Source of the DNA: an uncultured archaeon | GTDB lineage: Archaea; Halobacteriota; Methanosarcinia; Methanosarcinales; Methanoperedenaceae | Direction: 5' to 3' | Assembly: GCA_902386135.1 (NCBI GenBank) | Contig: CABMIB010000066.1 | Coordinates: 1 to 64,000, forward strand | Length of the DNA stretch: 64,000 nucleotides | Part shown: in pieces, positions 34,079 through 36,824 of the stretch | Layout of the letters: each line of letters opens with the position of its first letter | Position numbering within the stretch: the first letter of the stretch is position 1 | Position numbers and translations under genes: made by a program | Notes under the pieces: model-generated | What the model was told of the DNA's origin: nothing | Databases searched by the model: none | What the model saw: only the letters and a program-made list of their open reading frames with translations

Positions 34079-34297
34079 GATTTATTATTCATGATTCAAG
34101 GAATTTGCTGATGTTTTTTGAAGTAAAATTCAACGCCGATACAGGCGCTGCACATTTATCACTTTTAAAATATTAAATCTCCGGCGCCGATATGTTCCAG
34201 TAGCAGTAATATTCCGGTTAGAGCGAAACTCCTCAGTCTGCATCAATGGGATGGGTTTTTTCTCTTGCAGACCTGAAGGCGTACCCGGTCGGGGCGC

Positions 34298-34306
34298 CAA
34301 GCTGGA
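34298..34306 (+). repeat. Left copy of a 9-bp target-site duplication
   Basis: caagctgga directly precedes the left terminal inverted repeat and recurs at 35112-35120 directly after the right one. Nine exact bases at both ends are the sign of a transposition event. Because of one shared base the duplication could also be counted as 10. Confidence 0.85.
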
Positions 34307-35111
34307 GATTCTGTTAAGTTAAGGAGTATATTGTTTTCTTATGATTAAAATTTATACGTTCAAAATATAATATTTAACTTTGCGAGTGCAATATTTTGTT
34401 AAATAGCTTTAATCGTTCAAAGGTGGACAATAGTGCCCACACTGAAATTGATAATAAAAGAAATATCTGTATATCCTCTTTTGTAATTATAGGGATATTA
34501 ATAAAAGACATTGATAACAATGATGTGTCGTTGAGTCTGGAAAGCGTCCCCATAAATCTCATAAATGCAAAGAGTATTATGATAATTACAAAATCATAAA
34601 CAACTTCAAGAAATTCTTCTTCTCTATCTCCTCTTTTATATTGTAAAATTCTAGACGCACAAAGAAGTGTTAAAGCAGGATAAGAATACTGCAAAAAATT
34701 AGTAGTTTTATTAAAAAATAATATTGAAATTGAAAATGTTAAACAAAAAGCATTTATCATAAATTTTACGTAATATGTAGAAATATATTTAGAAGTGATT
34801 ATTTCCTCATAAGGAGGTAGCATAAAAATCCCAAGTATTTGTTTGGAGTACGAAAACACTAAAGAAATTAAAAAACCCATAATCAAAATTTCAATGGCAT
34901 AAAATAAATATCTAGGAAAAGATTCTTCGGTGATTAACAGCATAACTAAAATAGGAGTTAGCAAAAATATAAGACCCTTTTTGATATGATTTTTTGGATT
35001 TACTTTTTTTTGCATGTTCCAATTCTCATTTTCAGATAATTAATTAAAGTTATTCTATTAAAATTTAACTCCATAAAAAACTACCCCCATACTCCTTAAC
35101 TTAACAGAATC
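34307..35111. mobile_element. Non-autonomous transposon-like element carrying one membrane-protein gene
   Basis: 805 bases bounded by perfect 23-bp inverted repeats (34307-34329 and 35089-35111; left end begins gattctgttaagttaagg) and flanked by the 9-bp direct repeat caagctgga. The interior is strikingly AT-rich compared with the neighbouring thermosome and protease genes. It encodes no transposase; the single gene (34374-35015, minus strand) is a membrane protein. The end sequence loosely recalls the gg-ttctgtt ends of IS6-family elements, but the 9-bp duplication is one base longer than is usual for that family. It presumably moves by a transposase made elsewhere. Confidence 0.8.
34374..35015 (-). 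CDS. Membrane protein carried by the transposon-like element
   Basis: 213 residues with about six hydrophobic stretches (near 14-30, 36-55, 85-105, 110-122, 142-158, 180-200). The N-terminus MQKKVNPKNHIKKG is basic. No DDE, HUH or recombinase signature is present and no transporter motif stands out. The coding is very AT-rich, unlike its neighbours, in keeping with foreign origin. Function unknown. It is the only cargo of the element, lying 44 bases from the left and 73 bases from the right inverted repeat. Confidence 0.6.
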   Translation of the reverse strand: MQKKVNPKNHIKKGLIFLLTPILVMLLITEESFPRYLFYAIEILIMGFLISLVFSYSKQILGIFMLPPYEEIITSKYISTYYVKFMINAFCLTFSISILFFNKTTNFLQYSYPALTLLCASRILQYKRGDREEEFLEVVYDFVIIIILFAFMRFMGTLSRLNDTSLLSMSFINIPIITKEDIQIFLLLSISVWALLSTFERLKLFNKILHSQS

Positions 35112-35120
35112 CAAGCTGGA
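35112..35120 (+). repeat. Right copy of the 9-bp target-site duplication
   Basis: caagctgga, identical to 34298-34306. It abuts the TATA region of the thermosome gene (35121 onward), so the element inserted a few bases upstream of that promoter. Confidence 0.85.
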
Positions 35121-35123
35121 TTA

Positions 35124-35133
35124 ATTATTTATA
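35124..35133 (+). promoter_or_regulatory. Putative TATA box of the thermosome gene
   Basis: attatttata lies about 48-57 bases before the thermosome ATG, with a Shine-Dalgarno ggaggt at 35166-35171. The B-recognition element position immediately upstream falls in the duplicated target bases and so survived the transposon insertion. Confidence 0.5.
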
Positions 35134-35180
35134 GAACCACAAACACTTAGAATCATCTTTATGTTCGGAGGTAATTCATT

Positions 35181-36824
35181 ATGGCAGGTCAACTATCTGG
35201 ACAGCCTATTATTATATTGGATAAAGACAAAACACGTACCCAGGGAAAAGAAGCACTCGGATTCAACATCACGGCAGCAAAAGCGATAGCAGATGCGGTA
35301 AGGACTACTCTCGGCCCGAAAGGCATGGACAAGATGCTCGTGAACCCGGTCGGGGACATGGTAATCACGAACGATGGCGCGACCATCCTGCGGGAGATGG
35401 ACATAAAACATCCCGCTGCAAAAATGATGGTGGAGATCGCCCGCACGCAGGAAGATAAGGCTGGCGACGGCACAACGAGCGCGGTAGTTCTTGCAGGAGA
35501 ACTCCTGAGCAAAGCGAAAACTCTGGTAGAGCAGAACGTCCATCCGACGAGCATAACAAGGGGTTACAGCCTTGCCTCGGTAAAGGCACTTGAGATCCTT
35601 GAGGATATGGCTATCGATGCTTCAGACGACGTGCTGGAGAATATAGCAAGGACGGCGCTCACAGGAAAAAGCGCAGACCTTGCCCTTGATTCGCTCGTCC
35701 AGTTATGCGTAAAGACCGCGCAATCGATCAAAGACGGCGGCAGGGTGAGCGTGAAGGAAAATATCAACATCATCCACCAGCGCGGCGGCAGTATAAAAGA
35801 TACAAAGTTCGTTCACGGGGTCGTGATCGATAAAGCCAGGGCGCATAAAAACATGCCAAAGAAAGTCGAGAATGCAAGAATCGCGGTTCTTGATACTGGA
35901 ATCGAGGTTGAGAAAACACAGATCACGTCAAAAGTCCAGATTACATCCCCGGAACTCCTCAAGGAAGCAAGGCTTGAAGAGACAAAACTTGTGGATGAAA
36001 AAGTCGAAGCGCTCTTAAAAAGTGGGGCCAACGTCATATTCACAGAGAAAGGCATAGATGATATCGGGATGCACAGCCTTGCAAAGAGAGGTGTATTCGC
36101 AGTACGCAGATGCAAGGATGAGGAGATCAAAAAAATAGTGAAAGCGACCGGCGCCCGTGTTGTCTCGGTACTTGACGGGGTTGAAGAGCAAGACCTCGGC
36201 AGGGCTGATATAGTCGAAGAGCGCGGTGTGGGCAACTACAAGATGATTTACATCGAGGGATGCGAGAACCCCAAAGCCGTATCCATTCTGATATATAGCG
36301 GCGCGGAGCATGTGGCTGATGAGATTGAACGTGCCCTGGACGATGCGCTGCGCGTGGTCGGGGATGTAATAGAGGACGGCAAGATAGTAGCGGGAGGCGG
36401 CGCACCTGAGGTTGAGCTTGCTATAAAGATTCGAAAATACGCCACCACACGTTCAGGCAGGGAGCAGCTTGCGGTTATGGCTTATGCAGATGCGCTTGAG
36501 GAGATACCCAAAGGTATTGCCGAAAATGCAGGTCTTGATGCGATCGATGCACTTGTGGATCTCAGGAACATGCACAGCAAAGGTATCAGCACAGCGGGAT
36601 TGAATGTGTTCACGGGAAAAGCCGAGGATATGCTCCAGTTAGGGGTCATCGAGCCGCTGCGCGTAAAGACGCAGATAATAAAATCCGCAACAGATGCTGC
36701 GAATATGATCCTGCGCATCGATGATATCCTGATGGCAAAGGAAACAGGCATGATGGATGTCAATCCAGAGCACACTGCGGACTTTTACAATGGGATACAG
36801 GCACCGCCTATTGAGGAAGACTAA
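35181..36824 (+). CDS. thsA: Thermosome subunit (group II chaperonin)
   Basis: 547 residues, full length. ATP-site motifs [47 protein letters not shown] (catalytic aspartate) and [10 protein letters not shown] are intact, and the C-terminus ends [24 protein letters not shown]; the Gly/Met-rich tail of some chaperonins is absent. It folds cytosolic proteins as a ring complex. Preceded by ggaggt and a TATA box; a transposon-like element ends 60 bases upstream and may affect heat-shock control. Confidence 0.97.

Follow-up and report, generated by a model that had tools for sequence, protein, structure and literature searches.

Introduction

Mobile insertion cassettes of the MIC231 type, whose parentage lies with IS4/IS231, and the elements termed tIS consist of two insertion sequence (IS) ends around a passenger gene; they carry no transposase and are presumed to be mobilised in trans. 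The element described here lies in a 64-kb stretch of archaeal DNA that was analysed in full (hereafter the window) and has the same layout, but it differs from MIC231-type cassettes in its IS6-type parents, its archaeal host and its target at the edge of a promoter. With MITEs it shares two matching ends and a non-autonomous way of life, and it differs from them in carrying an intact gene. Among eukaryotes, the LTR retroelements Tf1 and Ty1/Ty3 target promoters, integrating a short way upstream and leaving the target gene unharmed. The family of our element likewise inserts just upstream of promoters and spares the target gene; unlike these retroelements, it is of the IS6-type DNA transposon kind and inserts in a single-base register at the BRE/TATA region.

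IS6 elements are described in one account as ~700–890 bp long, with an 8-bp target-site duplication (TSD) and a transposase only, just one member (ISDsp3) being listed with a passenger gene (PMC7986276). Archaeal IS6 members may form a separate family, according to a second account (PMC6807381). Our family resembles the archaeal branch of IS6/IS26 in its IS240/IS6-type DDE transposase (NF033587, PF13610), in its TSDs of 8–9 bp, and in its ends, G[AG]TTCTGTYAA, similar to the G-tip and cTGTt motif of IS6. It departs from IS6 (0.7–0.9 kb) in having elements of 3–5 kb with several cargo genes, in the N-terminal zinc ribbon (plus a probable SWIM-type stretch) carried by its transposases, and in its insertion at promoter edges, a trait that the consulted passages of both accounts do not mention (PMC7986276, PMC6807381). 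In the open-access literature, we found no report of promoter-edge or promoter-targeted insertion by archaeal transposons, and none on IS6 in Methanoperedens. The window element is a new cargo-only variant that is MIC-like, has IS6-related parents and follows an unusual target rule.

An 805-bp element abuts the thermosome promoter

The element is bounded by two 23-bp terminal inverted repeats (TIRs). The left TIR, GATTCTGTTAAGTTAAGGAGTAT, at positions 34307–34329 (plus strand), is the exact reverse complement of the right TIR at 35089–35111 (minus strand), and together they enclose a unit of 805 bp. This is the sole perfect inverted-repeat pair of at least 20 bp, at a spacing of 100–5000 bp, in the entire window. 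A 9-bp TSD, CAAGCTGGA, lies against both arms, at 34298–34306 on the left and 35112–35120 on the right; the chance of such a direct repeat is ~4^-9, and coincidence is therefore excluded. TIRs flanked by a TSD are a hallmark of non-autonomous transposons and mobile insertion cassettes, and the 805-bp unit is a real non-autonomous insertion. Its GC content of 26%, against 45% for the window, is below that of all 805-bp segments sampled.

The right copy of the TSD directly abuts the BRE/TATA core promoter of the thermosome gene (TTAATTATTTATAG, 35121–35134, plus strand), which is intact despite the insertion and is kept in ~25 relatives. Scored with a promoter profile, this core reaches 13.6, at offset 9 only. 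The thermosome (TCP-1/cpn60) gene itself, whose promoter is the insertion target, follows at 35181–36824 on the plus strand (Cpn60_TCP1, E 1.8e-169). No promoter adjoins the left TIR.

The largest open reading frame inside the element (34374–35015, minus strand) encodes a 213-aa multispan membrane protein with about five hydrophobic segments. Searches against Pfam gave a sub-threshold match only, to ABC2_membrane_5 (E 0.004), and no match was found in NCBIfam, PDB, IMG/VR or PLSDB; a single-sequence AlphaFold2 model of the protein had a pLDDT of 52. Pfam and NCBIfam likewise matched no transposase within the 805 bp, and a passenger gene without a transposase is the second hallmark of a mobile insertion cassette. 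The first-pass annotation of this DNA had described the same inverted and direct repeats, an AT-rich interior, a right end stopping at the thermosome TATA region, and a 213-residue multispan membrane protein as the lone gene inside, with no transposase; the repeat coordinates proved exact on re-checking, base composition and promoter position bear out the second and third descriptions, and the open reading frames and profile searches agree with the last. It had also left room for the membrane gene being conserved at this locus by vertical inheritance. This does not hold: across 186 genomes of the order the protein has at most one full match, plus one weak partial match (G184), and an ordinary, vertically inherited membrane gene was rejected on that ground. 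A viral origin was rejected as well, with the end pattern absent from IMG/VR and no relative of the protein found in IMG/VR or among plasmids. The cargo may be useful to the host or to the element, and its insertion may affect thermosome transcription.

Matching ends enclose IS6-type transposases in other genomes

With up to three mismatches allowed, the 23-bp end occurs in 36 of the 186 genomes of the order, while a reversed control pattern occurs in none. A scan for the exact pattern across 84,980 species returned 12 matches, all within Methanosarcinales (Methanolobus, Methanomethylovorans, Methanoperedens and other Methanosarcinaceae). Matches from the host's own genus bear the name Methanoperedens, which makes the host a methane-oxidising archaeon of the Methanoperedens type. 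The window's own genome has no further copy of the exact ends. The wider family comprises 17 elements of 0.1–5.3 kb with exact 8- or 9-bp TSDs. End pairs without an exact TSD are found in G179 and in most of the 109-bp MITEs. MITE-like pairs of 109–129 bp with GGTTCTGTCAAG ends, mostly lacking an exact TSD, are present on four contigs of the window's own genome (C53, C95, C114 and C26) and at two loci in G044 (L279, L280).

Several relatives carry a transposase between such ends. In a Methanolobus-group genome (G135), a 5283-bp element adjoining the nifH promoter has TIRs that match those of the window at 23/23 and 22/23 positions, together with an exact 9-bp TSD, TTCTACATA. Another genome of this group (G137) contains a 3208-bp element with diverged TIRs (4–5 mismatches) and an exact 9-bp TSD, CCTTATGGG. 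The DDE transposases of these two elements, 286–290 aa long and 87% identical to each other, belong to the IS6 family by NCBIfam NF033587 (145 bits, cut-off 125); this pair, associated with window-type ends, comes from another family of the order. Elements with an IS240-DDE transposase and exact 8- or 9-bp TSDs are also found in Methanoperedens (G042, G044, G045, G047, G062, G068, G069 and G070), where transposases of 383, 389 and 365 aa lie inside GGTTCTGTYAAG... ends. Methanoperedens transposases score 112–116 bits with NF033587, which is under the cut-off, and are above the cut-off of PF13610. The autonomous relatives span 2.8–5.3 kb, mostly with several extra genes, and the compact IS6 format was not encountered among them. 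In G051, one 23-bp end directly abuts the inside of a reading frame for an IS6-type transposase (contig C64; L056 3310–3441), an arrangement that looks as if one element had gone into another.

Among elements with an exact TSD, the window element and most others have one of 9 bp, and the remaining relatives one of 8 bp. As the TSD is mostly 9 bp, and not the canonical 8 bp, we call the family IS6-related and not canonical IS6. The same discrepancy, the canonical IS6 TSD being 8 bp (PMC7986276), could suggest that the window element is not IS6-related at all and is moved by some other, unseen DDE transposase with a 9-bp TSD, its ends being merely similar; no Methanoperedens IS6 transposase was found with exactly these ends, and the window's own genome has fragments only. 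We regard this as very unlikely, given that ends identical at 23/23 and 22/23 positions flank an element with both an IS6-family transposase and a 9-bp TSD, that family members with 8-bp and 9-bp TSDs have ends and transposase in common, and that a 9-bp TSD is also given for ISPfu5, a member of the archaeal IS6 group (PMC6807381). An IS4/IS231 parentage as in classical mobile insertion cassettes was unsupported, the transposases inside matching ends being of the IS6 type.

The first-pass annotation had read the locus as a transposon-like element without a transposase, a reading it said would suffer if no other copy shared the ends, and it had proposed a search for an IS with matching ends and a transposase. 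Copies do exist in other genomes, some with a transposase, and the G135 element is such an IS; ends that match those of an autonomous IS are the third hallmark of a mobile insertion cassette. Its reading is thus supported by the TIR/TSD anatomy, by the lack of a transposase and by transposase-bearing relatives with matching ends. We conclude that the window element is very probably a cargo-only mobile insertion cassette, inserted in trans by the IS6-type transposase of a related element, and that it belongs to a promoter-edge cargo family of Methanosarcinales. In such an event, an IS6-type transposase encoded by the related element would bring the two 23-bp ends together in a synapse and insert the 805-bp unit; the stagger of 9 bp would have the thermosome BRE at its downstream edge, and the cargo would come to lie permanently in front of a housekeeping promoter, which stays unbroken. 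A transposase of the G135/G137 type, or a related IS6-type enzyme, probably moved the window copy. The window's own genome contains transposase fragments only, which, judging by the assembly, leaves this copy an orphan at present.

Cargo differs among family members

The window's own genome contains a second cargo-only element, of 767 bp (contig C106), with the TSD AGGATTAG and located at the promoter of an ammonium transporter. Further cargo-only elements encode a Fic protein (G062 L193, 1660 bp) and a frameshifted ORC/CDC6-like ATPase (G042 L116, 3026 bp). An N6-DNA-methylase with type I specificity subunits is present in G042 (L186) and G044 (L205), several proteins with weak matches to candidate defence families are carried by the G135 element, and the 3208-bp element of G137 has a tRNA-Val (GAC) gene aboard (L143 6799–6874). 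Further cargo of the family consists of unknown proteins, and overall the cargo appears to be mostly of defence or unknown type.

A two-gene cargo in G179 (L071; 90 and 251 aa) recurs at 49–58% identity on contig C109 of G066, a Methanoperedens genome (L221/L092), where it adjoins an IS6-type transposase fragment. We take this recurrence as a sign of a module moving between families.

Insertions stop at the upstream edge of core promoters

Stopping at the TATA region is the rule for the family. In the seven elements found first, a promoter profile that had been trained on different loci peaked at offset 9 every time (7/7). In a set of 14 elements, 13 were individually significant, on one side only. 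A BRE/TATA was found at the edge of the TSD in 12/14 cases, at offset 9 with a 9-bp TSD and at offset 8 with an 8-bp TSD; the exceptions are one element at offset 11 and G062 L217, which has a weak score. The opposite side of each element generally has no promoter. Three members of this set (L186, L187 and L193) had been fetched with a TATA-containing profile. To avoid selection bias, the test was repeated on a second set of 14 that left them out and took in three further elements, using a generic consensus tried at all shifts, with the register set from 46 ends (mostly solo) that had been chosen by repeat sequence alone. The combined signal was strong at the right register (Fisher p ~2e-17, n=14) and far weaker at all other shifts. 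Of the 46 ends, 29 match a promoter, all of them at one and the same offset.

What had been an isolated oddity in the window is thus part of a family with a clear rule: insertion is in register, to the single base, with the upstream border of archaeal core promoters. This accounts for the ability of cargo genes to settle beside essential genes without breakage. Targeting of this edge would spare the core promoter of the target gene and park the cargo beside a transcribed gene. The preference may stem from a transposase that senses promoter DNA or bound TBP/TFB, and the rule lets target choice via TBP/TFB be tested directly.

Solo ends are found at the same spacing

Solo copies of the end are found at a 9-bp spacing upstream of the TATA of modA, nifH, glnA and gdhA in the Methanolobus group and other Methanosarcinaceae (L014–L021, L057–L068), where genes linked to nitrogen and molybdenum stand out, and at the thermosome promoter in four other Methanoperedens genomes. 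Such a fixed spacing is what would be expected if the 23 bp were a host regulatory site, an upstream activator of thermosome and nitrogen-related promoters, with the second copy and the direct repeat at our locus arising by local rearrangement. The modA loci of 15 Methanolobus-group genomes fit this picture, as their 23 bp are 94% identical compared with 33–35% for the inner neighbouring sequence. On the other hand, exact TSDs outside the ends, and a transposase inside matching ends, occur at many unrelated loci, no promoter is present at the far ends of elements, and remnants of element genes lie inward of the solo modA ends: G116 has a broken transposase there, G137 what is left of a small protein, and G135 part of a cargo gene. 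These TSDs, together with the transposase remnants at solo loci, led us to reject a conserved regulatory site alone as the full explanation, and we consider the rearrangement scenario very unlikely.

We instead read the solo loci as decayed insertions of the transposon family that have kept their promoter-proximal end, possibly in the role of a promoter element. Solo ends may also reflect independent re-insertion or binding by a host factor. More tentatively, the transposase may be guided to the pre-initiation complex, probably through TFB/TBP-bound DNA, making one cut at the BRE boundary, and leftover ends may have been kept repeatedly as promoter elements (modA, nifH, glnA, thermosome), thereby seeding regulatory sites. 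The target rule also suggests one way in which methanogens and ANME archaea may acquire new upstream promoter elements.

The insertion locus in related genomes

Among the genomes compared, which are mostly MAGs, there are relatives without the insert, but none has an empty site with a single CAAGCTGGA, because the sequence preceding the thermosome BRE varies from one genome to the next; even in the closest relative the upstream DNA is unrelated.

On the other side of the element, between an aspartyl-protease-like open reading frame and the left TSD, positions 34141–34206 contain a repeat of 50–95 bp. At least 12 copies of this repeat, all in the same orientation and spaced 0.2–3 kb apart with small open reading frames between them, are found on contig C38 of the window's own genome (19931–30416; L240), and it is also present in other Methanoperedens genomes. 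The arrangement on C38 resembles a gene-cassette array or a repeated intergenic site.
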